IMG/VR virus record: IMGVR_UViG_3300032805_000001
Location: 1-64,000 of that record
DNA from: a virus
DNA: 64,000 nucleotides
Reading direction: 5' to 3' (one strand)
A model generated the notes under the pieces. The model was given only the letters and a program-made list of their open reading frames with translations, had not been told where the DNA came from and searched no databases. This document shows positions 26,840-31,286 of the stretch, piece by piece. Within the stretch, counting starts at the first letter, position 1. Each line of letters begins with the position of its first letter. A program made the translations under genes and the position numbers.

Positions 26840-27565
26840 ATGGCCGACCTCCTCGAAGACATCCGCCCTGACGGCACGCCCCAGGCCCCGGATGCCCTCA
26901 GCAACGCGCTCTACGGACGCGCTGCCCAGCCTGTCGACCAGGCTGACATCGCCCGGTACAACACCACCGGCGACGCCCTCAGGTCCGTGATGCCCGACCT
27001 CGTGAAAGGCGCCGGATTCGCCGCCAAGGGCGGCAACCAGCCCCTGTCCGACCCGGCCGATATCACCCTCCGCGCCTCGATGGCCACCACCGAACTCCGC
27101 AGCGCCGTCTACCAGGGCTTCCACGGCAAATCCAGCGTCGTGAAGTCGTTCAACCCGGGCTTCATGTCCCAGTTCGGGGCTCTCCAGACCGCGCTGTCCG
27201 CGCCGAGCGTGGGGGAGCAGGTCGCCCAGGTCCTCGGGCAGGTCAACCCGGACCTCACCAGGTCGTTTACCGCTGGGAACCTCGGTATCGGCTCGGTGTC
27301 CGGTTTGACCCCTTTCAACCTCCTTGCGCCTTCGAGGTTGGTTTATCCGGTTTACACCGTTTACAGGAACAAGTTTCCCCGGCCGGCAGGCCAGGGCGCG
27401 TCCCTGATCGAGCGGCTGTTCACCGGCATCAGCGGCAGCCAGACCGGCGGCCAGTCCGTCAAGGACATCTCCCTGTCCGAACTCGTCGGCGGCTCCAGCT
27501 TCGGCACGTGGCCGCTGAGCCTGCCCGCTGCGGGCAGCCAGACCGAAACCACCATCAACGTCCCT
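26840..27565 (+). CDS. Major capsid protein, exon 1
   Basis: 242 codons from ATG behind GAAAGGAG up to the predicted 5' splice site after CCT (27563-27565); without splicing the frame stops at TAA 27566-27568. Contains capsid-like stretches (PADITLRASMATTELRSAVYQ, PSRLVYPVYTVYRNKFPRP, here split as position ranges about 75-95 and 163-181). It directly follows protease/scaffold, the standard place of the HK97-fold capsid gene. The spliced protein is about 590 residues. Confidence 0.88.
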
Positions 27566-28340
27566 TAATTTGGTAGGGGCCTCGCATCGTGAGGTGCGAG
27601 TGAAAACCGCGAGAACTGCTGGAAAGCCCGAGCCACCTGCCTAGGCCACAACGTGGGGCGAAAGCCCGAGCGTGACGGCTTGAAAACTTAGGCAGCAGAG
27701 GGGTAATCAGCAGCCGAGCCCGCCTGGGACCTCATCCCTTTCGGGCGCTGCCCCTTGAGGCGTCGCATCTCAAGGAAGTAGCGCTCCCGCATCACCAACT
27801 GCTCTGGAGTGAGAGGCCGGCCGGGGATACGTCCCCCCGCTGTCATGGCGGCCTGGAACTCCATCAGCATGAGAGCTTGCGGCTTCTTGAGGATGAGGTA
27901 AGACACGACCTGCTCCATCAGTTCGGCGGCGATCTTCGCCTGCCAACTGATCCTGTATGCCTGCTTGACCATGTTCGCCGTCGGCTTCTTGATCATTATG
28001 TGACGGTCATAGAGCCTGGCCAGATGCTCGATCGACTCACGTTCCGACATCTGGACCTCAACCTTGGCGAAATAGCGCGGATTACCATTCTTGATGTGAG
28101 GCGCTGGCCGTACTCTCTCGATGGTGATCACGCCATCGGCGTCAAGGATTCCGGCTAGGTAAGCCAGGTCTGTGTCTTTAACTGGATACATGCTCTGAGC
28201 ATATACCATGTAAATCCCGACGGGATGGTTCAGAGAGCATGCACGCGGAATCTCAATGAGATTGTGATGTGCTCCGACCTCACGTGAGAGCGTGAGAGAC
28301 CAGCGGAAACGACTGGTCCCGTCATTCCTTGAATGGATGG
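27566..28340 (+). ncRNA. Group I intron interrupting the major capsid gene
   Basis: The ribozyme core is readable by hand. P1: exon CCCT (27562-27565) with GGGG (27576-27579), including the U-G splice pair. P2: CTCGCA/TGCGAG (27581-27600). P3: CCGCG (27607-27611) with CGCGG (28244-28248). P4: CTGCTG with CAGCAG in the Q-like AATCAGCAGCC. P7: GAGCA (28235-28239) with TGCTC (28270-28274). P8: an AATCTC/GAGATT hairpin. P9-type hairpins: CTCACG/CGTGAG and GACCAG/CTGGTC. The endonuclease gene occupies the peripheral P6 region on the opposite strand. The 3' end at G28340 is chosen because it keeps the capsid frame and ends in G; neighbouring G positions are not excluded. Confidence 0.92.
27688..28191 (-). 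CDS. Single-motif LAGLIDADG homing endonuclease, antisense within the intron
   Basis: 167 residues from ATG 28191 (the frame extends to 28350 without support). LAYLAGILDADGVITI (residues 9-24) is the LAGLIDADG helix; a single copy implies action as a homodimer. It would cut intronless capsid alleles and so spread the intron. It is transcribed opposite to the intron and capsid gene, so it needs its own promoter; a TATGCT-like -10 lies just upstream of the start. Its 3' end (stop at 27688-27690) overlaps the ribozyme Q/P4 strand, so those bases serve both the protein and the RNA. Confidence 0.9.
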   Translation of the reverse strand: MYPVKDTDLAYLAGILDADGVITIERVRPAPHIKNGNPRYFAKVEVQMSERESIEHLARLYDRHIMIKKPTANMVKQAYRISWQAKIAAELMEQVVSYLILKKPQALMLMEFQAAMTAGGRIPGRPLTPEQLVMRERYFLEMRRLKGQRPKGMRSQAGSAADYPSAA

Positions 28341-29387
28341 CGAGTAACAAATGTGTACCGCTTCCTCGGAATCACCGAACAGCTCTCGTGGCTGGCCCAG
28401 TTCTCGGGTCAGGGCTACGAGGACATTTCCGCCCTAGCATCCCTGATAATGCTTCAGGAAATGATGTTGGGGGAAGAATATATGCTCATTGCCGGCAGTT
28501 CTTCCACCCTCACCGCCCCCGCTGCGCCGACTGTCACGCGGCGCACTGCTGGGTCGAATGAGACCTCGGTGGGGGCGAACACCTATTACAAGGTGTTTGT
28601 GACGGCGACGAACTTCTTCGGTGAGACGATCGCGTCTGCCGTGGGGGATGCGAGCGCTACGACGGCCGGTCAGGTTGTGGATGTGACGATCTCGCCGGTT
28701 CAGGGTGCGATGAACTACAACATCTACGTGTCCACGCAGTCGTCTGCGCTGACCGCGAATGAGTATCTCGCGGCGTCTGGTGTGGGCGGCACGAAGTACA
28801 CCTTGCAGGGCACCCCGCCCAGTTCGGGTACTACGCCGCCCGCGGCGGATTCGGGTACGGGGGCGAACACCCGGTTCGAGGGTGTCATCCCCACCCTGTC
28901 CGGGCTGTCCGCTGAGGCGGGCATCTACCCGACCTCGCCGACTCCGTGGCAGGCGGGCTACTACAACAACAACGTCCAGACCCACCTGTCCTACAACGCG
29001 ATTTACACGGCGCTGAAGAACCTGTGGCAGTCGACGTCGACGAACCCGGGTGGTTTCCGGGCTGACCCGGCGGAGATCGTCAGCAGCGGTATCGACATCG
29101 CGAACCTGTCCAACGACGTCATCAACCAGGGCGCCGGCACGAACTACCAGTTGTTCATCCAGCAGGGCAACGTCGGTGATGTGACTGTCGGCGCGGCGGT
29201 GAGCCAGTTCCAGAACCCGCTGACCCGCAGCCTGCTCAAGATGGTCGTGCACCCCTGGTACACCCAGGGTAACGCGACGCTGCTCTCTTATCAGCTTCCT
29301 CAGACGTGGACGAACGTCGCGAACGCCTGGGAAGTGTCGACGGTGCAGGACTACGTGTCCATTGAGGCCCAGTTCTCGCTGAACTAG
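28341..29387 (+). CDS. Major capsid protein, exon 2 (with Ig/FN3-like insertion)
   Basis: 348 codons continuing the capsid frame (RVTNVYRFLGITEQLSWLAQ at the junction). About residues 295-395 of the spliced protein are an inserted fibronectin/Ig-like domain (APTVTRRTAGSNET, YYKVFVTATNFFGET, MNYNIYVSTQSSA), a known decoration of actinophage capsids. The end, VSIEAQFSLN, is followed by TAG 29385-29387. That stop overlaps the predicted 5' splice site of a second group I intron, so the true C-terminus depends on splicing. Confidence 0.88.
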   Translation, partial: RVTNVYRFLGITEQLSWLAQFSGQGYEDISALASLIMLQEMMLGEEYMLIAGSSSTLTAPAAPTVTRRTAGSNETSVGANTYYKVFVTATNFFGETIASAVGDASATTAGQVVDVTISPVQGAMNYNIYVSTQSSALTANEYLAASGVGGTKYTLQGTPPSSGTTPPAADSGTGANTRFEGVIPTLSGLSAEAGIYPTSPTPWQAGYYNNNVQTHLSYNAIYTALKNLWQSTSTNPGGFRADPAEIVSSGIDIANLSNDVINQGAGTNYQLFIQQGNVGDVTVGAAVSQFQNPLTRSLLKMVVHPWYTQGNATLLSYQLPQTWTNVANAWEVSTVQDYVSIEAQFSLN

Positions 29388-29650
29388 GGCAAGGTGGCGC
29401 GGCCGGGTGACCGGTCGTGGAAAACGGCACTGTTCGGGGAACCCCTCCACTACGTGGGGAATCCCGAGCTGCGGCGATGCCTGCCGCAGTGTAGAGACTG
29501 TACGTGCCGGATCTGTGTTATGGACGACCGCGCGAGGCATTGCGTGCGGTCGGCCGCAGATCGTGAGACAGGCCGATCTGCATCGATGGCAAAGATGCAG
29601 AAGCGGGCAGAAATGACCCGCTCGCTCACCGTAACGGTGAGAGGTAACAG
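29386..29650 (+). ncRNA. Second group I intron core at the capsid stop codon (Azoarcus-like)
   Basis: No protein call fits here, but a compact group I fold does. P1: ACT (29383-29385) with GGT (29393-29395). P2: GGCCGG/CCGGTC (29401-29416) closed by a GUGA tetraloop. P3: CGGCAC (29425-29430) with GTGCCG (29504-29509). P4: TCGGG (29434-29438) with CCCGA (29463-29467). P5: CCCC with GGGG (29442-29459). P6: CTGCGGC/GCCGCAG (29469-29489). P7: GACTGT (29496-29501) with ACAGGC (29568-29573), one A-G mismatch. P8: GATCTG/CAGATC (29510-29562). P9 hairpins run to about 29641. The GTGTAGAGACT segment is close to the Azoarcus tRNA intron. The 3' end is uncertain; cutting after G29650 would regenerate TAA as the capsid stop. 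Confidence 0.78.
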
Positions 29651-29781
29651 AATGCGCGTGGCCCGTTATCGACGCAACGTTCAGGTATAGCATCTTTAGT
29701 TACGAAGCGCTAGTGAGCCATGCCCCTTGGTACTCAGCGCAGCTATCTGGGCTCCAGAACAGTGACTCCCCGCCTTATTCG

Positions 29782-29837
29782 TAACACCGAACATCGAGTT
29801 AGTGTTATAGTTTCTCCATGAGCGGGCACCCTGCCCG
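29782..29837 (+). promoter_or_regulatory. Putative promoter/operator and leader hairpin
   Basis: In the gap before 29853 lie an inverted repeat TAACAC (29782-29787)/GTGTTA (29802-29807), a TATAGT-like -10 partly overlapping its right arm, and a small hairpin CGGGCA/TGCCCG (29823-29837) just before the Shine-Dalgarno. This AT-richer patch suggests independent, possibly repressed, transcription of the endonuclease gene. No good -35 box was found. Confidence 0.4.
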
Positions 29838-29852
29838 TGAAAAGGGGAAACG

Positions 29853-31286
29853 ATGGGAAGACGGCCCGACCTTGGACGCCGCCAGGAGCGCCAGCAGGCG
29901 TTCCTAGCGGCGTTCGCCGAAACCGGCATCGCCAGCCTTGCGGCCCAGCGGAGCGGCATCCCCGGACCGCAGCACTACAACTGGCTCAAGCGAGACGCCG
30001 ACTATGCCTCGCGCTTCGCTGAACTGCGAGGCAAGACGAGAGAGATCGCCGATCAGAACGCCAGGCCGCACGGCCCGGCACCCGGCACCCGGCAAGGAGG
30101 CAGGCGGCCAGCAGATCGCCTGCACCGCCAGGAATGCTTTCTTGAAGCGATCAGCCACGGACTCAGCATCATGGCCGCAGCACGTGAAACCGGCATGGGT
30201 GCCCCGACTAGCCACTATCAGTGGATTGCCAGCGACGAGAGTTATGCCGAACGTTTCCGTGACCTGTACGAACGTACGACAGAACTGCGTCGCACCAGCA
30301 TTTCACGGACGCTCAGAGAAGTTGCCGCAGTCACCTGGAGCAAGCCGGCCGCCCGGGACCAGTTCAATGCAGCGCAGCGTCGGCGCCGCACAGCGGAAAG
30401 CGGCGCACTGAATGAAACGCACCGGCAAGGGCCGTTCCTTGCGATCATCAGTCAGGGGATACCCCTTCAGGCTGCTGTGCGCGACGCCGGGATCACCAAG
30501 ACAATCCACCGTCAGTGGCTCGCCAGTGACCCCGCCTACGCTGCTGCGTTTCAGCAGGCATACGAGCAGAGTGCCGGACTGCGCACTCGAGTGATCAGTG
30601 AGATGCACAGCCGGGCGTCAGAAGCTCGCTGGGAAGATCCCGATGCTCGCGCAAAGATGAGAGAGCGGCATCGCGAATACTGGACGCCTGAACGCCGCGA
30701 GGAGTTCGCGCAGCAGATGCGTGAACGGTTCAAGAACGACCCCAGGCGGCGCGAGCAGCTTCTGGCGGCTGCTCGCGCCTGGTGGGACCGCCCCGACTCC
30801 CGTGCCATCAACAGCGAGCGAATGAAACGGCTCTGGGCGGATCCAGAGTACCGGCAGAGGTATCAGGCGGCCATCGACAACCCCGAGCGCCGGGAGCGCC
30901 TCAGTGAGGCGGCCAAGGCACAGTGGGCGGCGCTGACGCCAGAGGAGCAGGAAGCAAAGCTCCGCCACATGCGCCGCGCCTTCAAGGGCGGTCACAAGCT
31001 CACGTCCATCGAGTCGGCAGTCATGCTGGCCCTAAACGACCGTGAACTGCCCTATGTCGTACACAAGCAAATCGGCCGCTACATAGCCGACATTCTCATT
31101 CCATCGCTGCACCTCGTCATCGAATGCGACGGCGCGTGGTTCCACGTGCAGCGCCGTTCCAGCGACGAGGAGCGGGATGCAGAGTTGCGGGCCCTCGGGT
31201 TCGCCACGCTCAGGCTCTCCGAAGAGGAGATCAAGGCTCAGGACTGGAGCCGGCTGGACGAGAAGCTCACTGCACTCGCTCAGTAA
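29853..31286 (+). CDS. EDxHD/DUF559-type homing endonuclease with HTH and NUMOD3-like repeats
   Basis: 477 residues from ATG behind AAAAGGGGAAA. Residues 10-230 contain three similar helix-turn-helix units (AFAETGIASLAAQRSGI, AISHGLSIMAAARETGM, IISQGIPLQAAVRDAGI), each followed by a W..SD..YA..F stretch. Residues 240-375 are charged NUMOD3-like repeats with a W..P..R motif. Residues 385-470 are a Vsr/DUF559-fold nuclease (SIESAVMLAL, GRYIADILIP, LVIECDGAWFH). Nucleases of this EDxHD group are known from phages as free-standing or intron-linked homing enzymes. It lies just downstream of the second group I intron and probably mobilises it. Confidence 0.85.
   Translation: MGRRPDLGRRQERQQAFLAAFAETGIASLAAQRSGIPGPQHYNWLKRDADYASRFAELRGKTREIADQNARPHGPAPGTRQGGRRPADRLHRQECFLEAISHGLSIMAAARETGMGAPTSHYQWIASDESYAERFRDLYERTTELRRTSISRTLREVAAVTWSKPAARDQFNAAQRRRRTAESGALNETHRQGPFLAIISQGIPLQAAVRDAGITKTIHRQWLASDPAYAAAFQQAYEQSAGLRTRVISEMHSRASEARWEDPDARAKMRERHREYWTPERREEFAQQMRERFKNDPRRREQLLAAARAWWDRPDSRAINSERMKRLWADPEYRQRYQAAIDNPERRERLSEAAKAQWAALTPEEQEAKLRHMRRAFKGGHKLTSIESAVMLALNDRELPYVVHKQIGRYIADILIPSLHLVIECDGAWFHVQRRSSDEERDAELRALGFATLRLSEEEIKAQDWSRLDEKLTALAQ

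Follow-up and report, generated by a model that had tools for sequence, protein, structure and literature searches.

A putative capsid gene in three exons

The window analysed here, a stretch of 64,000 nucleotides that is part of a 120,103-base IMG/VR virus record, carries on its plus strand a putative major capsid gene divided by two group I introns and followed by a free-standing nuclease reading frame. Exon 1 (26840-27565) was placed by a tblastn chain with the intronless L009 protein and exon 2 (28356-29362) by comparison with relatives, while exon 3 (29655-29784), whose first codon is shared with exon 2, supplies the last 43 codons and the stop. The spliced frame, 26840-27565 + 28356-29362 + 29655-29784, encodes 620 residues with a single, terminal stop (TAA 29782-29784, the true stop of the gene), and its product is 64% identical to an intronless relative of 609 residues.

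We infer the capsid identity of the gene from gene order. The nearest named phages have terminase, portal, one other head-region gene and then a homologue of the putative capsid gene, and the window ORF that precedes exon 1 contains a region that weakly matches HK97-type prohead proteases. PDB and Pfam profile searches with the capsid-type family returned nothing meaningful, and no family model confirms the capsid identity. AlphaFold gave the capsid-type protein a pLDDT of 43 and no confident overall fold to confirm a capsid; because this model is unreliable, neither the fold nor the function of the C-terminus was judged from it. For the L009 protein, an inserted all-beta segment (residues ~290-400) is confidently predicted within an otherwise poor model. 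Neither a host nor a prophage turned up when bacterial genomes were scanned with the capsid protein, and no named phage matched 24 kb of sequence in megablast.

Intron 1 (27566-28355, plus strand, 790 nt) is a group I intron supported by empty-site comparison with relatives. It is preceded by a U and ends in a G, and the protein continues across the junction as NVP^Y (carets mark junctions). On the opposite strand it contains an endonuclease-like ORF (27688-28350) of LAGLIDADG-like type, with a match to phrog_5046 and a DLAYLAGILDADG motif. Models of the intron 2 family do not match intron 1, which is arranged like the capsid-gene intron of mycobacteriophage LittleE. The earlier note's proposal that two introns of different type interrupt one capsid gene is thus borne out, intron 1 being of another subtype than intron 2.

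Ends and insertion site of intron 2

Intron 2 (29363-29654, plus strand) is a group I intron of 292 nt without an ORF of its own. It was delimited by aligning it with the empty sites of L004-L007 and some 60 further relatives, collected by searches with the exon-2 protein, by homologues at the same codon and by covariation. The closest relatives, L004-L007 (86-88%), have no insert at the site, and 68 of the 74 relatives with a readable 3' end are uninterrupted there. Exact comparison with the empty site demonstrates the insertion and both its ends: the 5' splice site lies after T29362 and the 3' splice site after the omega-G, G29654, 43 codons ahead of the true gene end. We take 29363-29654 as the intron because only the junction T29362/C29655 gives the relatives' protein in frame, an exon-final U and an intron-final G. 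Excision ending at G29654 restores the host gene, the spliced protein matching those of intronless relatives, with the predicted junction GTGTCCAT^CGCGTGG.

The sequence behind the insert is coding. In about 68 intronless relatives, reading of the capsid gene continues for 43 codons beyond the stop that had been supposed to end it; the junction region reads DYVSIAWP or a close variant in all of them, and the 43-residue C-terminus, DYVSIAWPVIDATFRYSIF...PYS-stop or a close variant, is present in every intronless relative examined. The same C-terminus follows the insert in the window (C29655 GCG TGG CCC GTT ATC GAC ... TAT TCG TAA29784). Between L004 and the window, 23 codon changes in exon 3 are synonymous and only 2 are nonsynonymous; exon 3 is thus translated and under purifying selection.

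The TAG at 29385-29387 corresponds to intron nucleotides 23-25, inside the P1 loop, and unspliced mRNA therefore gives a truncated protein. As read from the sequence, this protein would lack the conserved C-terminus and carry a few intron-coded residues. The proposal that spliced and unspliced messages give the same protein, making the insertion nearly cost-free, accordingly has to be abandoned, since the conserved C-terminus is encoded downstream of the intron and would be lost without splicing. An in-frame stop occurs within the first 40 intron nucleotides in 10 of the 12 related introns studied here, and such stops have been interpreted as a ribosome-stalling device that lets the intron fold (PMC3984707). 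The earlier note had held that ordinary intergenic sequence at this place in relatives would speak against an intron. The outcome was the opposite: relatives show uninterrupted coding sequence, and the reading as an ordinary intergenic segment was rejected. An intein was likewise rejected, because the insert has an in-frame stop.

Fold, guide pairing and the P7 mismatch

The last four bases of exon 2, CCAT (29359-29362), pair with the internal guide sequence GTGG (29394-29397), CCAU docking on GUGG with a U.G at the splice site. Exon and guide co-vary between introns, and all four base pairs form in 11 of the 12. The pair is CCAT/GTGG in the window, L027, L026 and the L164 intron at residue 592, CGCT/GGCG in L155, CCGT/GCGG in L207 and, at 174, in L155, L027 and L217, and CCCT/GGGG in L162 and L186. 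Within the P1 loop, a hairpin (GCCCAGTTC/GAACTAGGGC, 29367-29390) holds the TAG at 29385-29387.

The same intron might alternatively, or on occasion, be cut after T29380 (TCGCT^GAACTAG, guide GGCG), a site that is in frame, ends in U, allows a 4-bp P1 and, as TCGCT^GAACTA, resembles the L155 junction ACGCT^CAACTA. However, the capsid protein would then gain six residues (EAQFSL) that occur in no relative, J1/2 would be reduced to 0 nt compared to 2-3 nt in the other introns at this site, and L027 and L026, which share the CCAT/GTGG pair, have their splice site at the earlier position, a long P1 loop being present in L026 too. We therefore consider cleavage after T29380 unlikely and retain T29362.

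The fold was examined on a covariation alignment of 12 introns from at least four sites of the same gene, with a hand-drawn P2-P9.2 structure in which P7 is treated as a pseudoknot. Pairing was found in 95.0% of 781 cells, with 155 double changes, compared to 74.8% and 51 double changes in shuffle controls (0 of 500 shuffles as high) and 35-43% in controls where the partner was slid by 1-3 columns. The fold z is -5.6, and RNAalifold, unaided, recovers most of the same nested helices. In the window, the 5' strand of P3 (CGGCAC, 29425-29430) pairs with 29504-29509, with double changes in four of the six pairs, and the alignment places the strands of P7 at 29496-29501 (GACTGT, the guanosine site) and 29568-29573 (ACAGGC). 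Covariation across the 12 introns supports a conserved P3-P8 core with the P7 guanosine site, the window copy having one mismatch in P7. These results demonstrate a group I fold far beyond chance and uphold the earlier description of such a core with a single P7 mismatch, which we locate at A29497.G29572.

This mismatch adjoins the guanosine-binding pair, and the A.G could weaken splicing. A canonical A-U occupies the position in 10 of the 12 introns, the mismatch being common only to the window and L155, whose intron is 81% identical to that of the window. Because it persists through the divergence from L155 while the other helices are kept by compensatory changes, the mismatch appears to be tolerated. 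Its place beside the guanosine-binding pair and the canonical pair in 10 of 12 introns would also suit a decayed intron, in which splicing has been abolished and the phage makes do with a truncated capsid protein. Yet the other helices are all intact, and in L155 the same mismatch has persisted alongside compensatory changes in other places. The protein sequence of exon 3 is conserved, its codon changes being mostly synonymous, and conservation of the C-terminus across the family is good; we thus judge decay very improbable and favour a functional intron.

We give practically no credence to the placement in the earlier note, a silently spliced insertion in the capsid stop codon with its 5' site in TAG29385 and its 3' site after G29650: the core does start close by and T+AA would recreate a stop, but the guide pairs with CCAT at 29359-29362, the empty site puts the ends after T29362 and G29654, and relatives encode 43 further conserved residues, maintained by selection, before the real stop at 29782-29784. 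The segment assigned to that insertion, 29383-29853, starts 20 nt inside the intron and covers 130 nt of 3' exon as well.

Kinship with known introns

The Rfam model RF00028 does not match intron 2 of the window at gathering or permissive thresholds, a miss that is uninformative because the controls, a betaproteobacterial Azoarcus-type intron and the BAKA and LittleE introns, also fall below its cut-off. A covariance model of the phage cores recognizes the introns of the Cluster J mycobacteriophages BAKA (NC_042316; 48 bits, E 6e-11) and LittleE (NC_042322; 41 bits, E 7e-9), as well as two alphaproteobacterial introns (4e-7 and 1e-6), with most bacterial introns at E 0.006-0.8 and most of the betaproteobacterial ones near 0.01-0.8. 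This demonstrates homology to introns with proven splicing: RT-PCR and N-terminal sequencing established it for the LittleE capsid-gene intron and RT-PCR for the BAKA tail-gene intron (PMC3706429). These two introns are the nearest experimental anchor for intron 2. As in the window, they reside in virion structural genes of large phage genomes (about 110-120 kb) and have U^...G^ ends, and their P9/P9.1 segment is ~90-93% identical over 42 nt; the BAKA intron is also ORF-less and of similar size (265 nt). They differ in host gene sequence and insertion site, one intron per gene being reported (PMC3706429), and the LittleE nuclease is encoded inside the intron, whereas that of the window lies outside intron 2.

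The resemblance to the Azoarcus tRNA intron that the earlier note had pointed out holds for the P7/P3' motif (GUGUAGAGACU..ACG), which is shared, and for the overall layout, but not as closest kinship, the BAKA and LittleE introns matching better. Core similarity to most bacterial introns is weak, and unlike Azoarcus-type introns, the window intron resides in an mRNA and has extra P8a and P9.1/P9.2 helices. We take the Azoarcus-type tRNA introns of Beta- and Alphaproteobacteria to be subgroup IC3. In several Polynucleobacter genomes (L257, L259, L291, L294), the Azoarcus-type P7/P3' motif is present many times, with four copies in one contig. A wider DNA pattern with 14 fixed bases gave mostly chance matches in viral contigs, almost none of which nhmmer confirmed.

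An intron family within one gene

Homologous introns occupy the window codon in L155, L027, L207 and L026; L164 has them five bases upstream of the window site and ~13 codons downstream of it, and others lie near residues 150-174 in L155, L027, L162, L186, L217 and L013. When relatives were mapped on the intronless protein, introns were found at at least nine sites of the capsid-type gene, with up to four per copy (L164, L026), while 57 of the 85 loci had none at all. Each of the 12 introns splits its codon between the second and third bases. Another phage gene with several group I introns is nrdE of Twort, which has two (cited in PMC3984707), in contrast to the at least nine sites, and up to four introns per gene, of the present family.

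In a tree of the introns, with high support for the split between two groups and weak support at inner nodes, the sequences group by insertion site with two exceptions, both in L164. Its intron at residue 592 clusters with introns of the 579 site and has the identical target TCCAT^C, and its intron at 577 clusters with those of the 174 site. These exceptions and the identical target suggest movement within the gene by guide pairing. It is possible, and we propose it only tentatively, that one ribozyme lineage has settled again and again in a single capsid-type gene family, moving within the gene by guide-directed reverse splicing, while homing to intronless genomes depends on exchangeable free-standing nucleases that retain related HTH modules but differ in catalytic domain (DUF559/Vsr or LAGLIDADG).

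Several loci of the same capsid-type gene have further arrangements. In L164 (4870-5502), two introns surround a 45-nt exon; L155 (698-1292) apparently has two successive introns separated by a mini-exon of ~25 nt, near residues 160-175 of the protein; and L004 (2424-3760) carries, at another codon, an intron with an internal nuclease ORF that is EDxHD/Vsr-like and contains the motif EADGAHHH.

The downstream nuclease

The ORF at 29853-31286 (plus strand, 477 aa) starts 69 bases past the true capsid stop and 198 bases past intron 2. It combines HTH repeats, with similarity to the Sf6_terminase-like (small terminase) HTH (E 2.9e-7), with an EDxHD-like C-terminal domain of DUF559/Vsr type (PF04480, E 1.9e-11); among PDB entries, sequence comparison ranks 3hrl first (E 0.0013). 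The EDxHD endonuclease that had been announced some 200 bp downstream is therefore present.

A nuclease ORF follows the gene at four of five independent loci with an intron at the 577/579 site and at four of 68 without it (Fisher p 3e-4; 74 relatives with a readable 3' end), counts that come from few loci and are not phylogenetically independent. L004-L007 have neither intron 2 nor the nuclease. A free-standing nuclease beside an intron-bearing gene, with both absent from intronless alleles, is what these loci show, with exceptions both ways; in G001 (L155/L185), for example, no nuclease accompanies the intron. In further phages that carry an intron at the site, L027 and L207 among them, a LAGLIDADG nuclease takes the place of that of the window, and the L027 protein joins the N-terminal HTH module seen in the window (38% identity, E 7e-27) to a LAGLIDADG domain. 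The presence of LAGLIDADG nucleases in the same place, once with the same N-terminus, suggests collaborative homing. As far as sequence comparison can tell, the pattern of introns and nucleases fits either collaborative homing, described for cyanophage S-PM2 (PMC6083498), or nuclease turnover, proposed elsewhere (PMC10448857).

Nuclease ORFs also occur in other settings. L008 (5177-6277) and L209 (5347-6450) have a free-standing LAGLIDADG ORF right after the gene and no 577/579-site intron, and L176 and L219 have an EDxHD-like nuclease ORF right after the capsid stop, again with no intron at that site. In L003 (5498-6923), a near-identical phage whose exon-2 protein is 100% identical, the nuclease ORF is frameshifted relative to the window copy; the downstream nuclease ORF of L164 is frameshifted as well.

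Discussion

Our preferred reading is that intron 2 excises itself, joining the exons, and that the neighbouring nuclease homes both the intron and itself; we put the probability of this joint reading at about 0.93. In such a scheme, intron 2 would fold, the 5' exon end CCAU would dock on the guide GUGG with a U.G at the cut, and, with guanosine bound in P7, the intron would release itself and join U29362 to C29655, restoring the C-terminus DYVSIAWPVIDATFRYSIF...PPYS. The in-frame stop in the P1 loop may keep ribosomes off the ribozyme core. The downstream nuclease would most likely cut intronless alleles at or near the site, which would lead to joint copying of the intron and the nuclease gene. 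Splicing in vivo, the nuclease target and the joint mobility are what we infer from the comparisons described above.

The closest parallel for such joint mobility is the psbA intron of S-PM2 with F-CphI, where an ORF-less intron is likewise accompanied by a free-standing nuclease next to the host gene, and intronless alleles lack the nuclease. The two systems differ in that cleavage by F-CphI has been measured (PMC6083498; PMC3984707), whereas the target of the window nuclease is predicted, and in that the nucleases here are DUF559/Vsr-like and LAGLIDADG enzymes, exchangeable on similar HTH modules.

Recognizing intron 2 changes how a virion gene is annotated: standard gene callers would overlook the intron beyond which its C-terminus is encoded. 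A further gain is a family of compact introns from uncultured phages, backed by covariation and kin to two with proven splicing, and the naturally mismatched P7 of the window copy provides a useful test of the tolerance of the guanosine site. Finally, the relatives form a natural allele series at one codon (empty, intron only, nuclease only, and both), on which both collaborative homing and the transposition of introns inside a gene can be tested directly.
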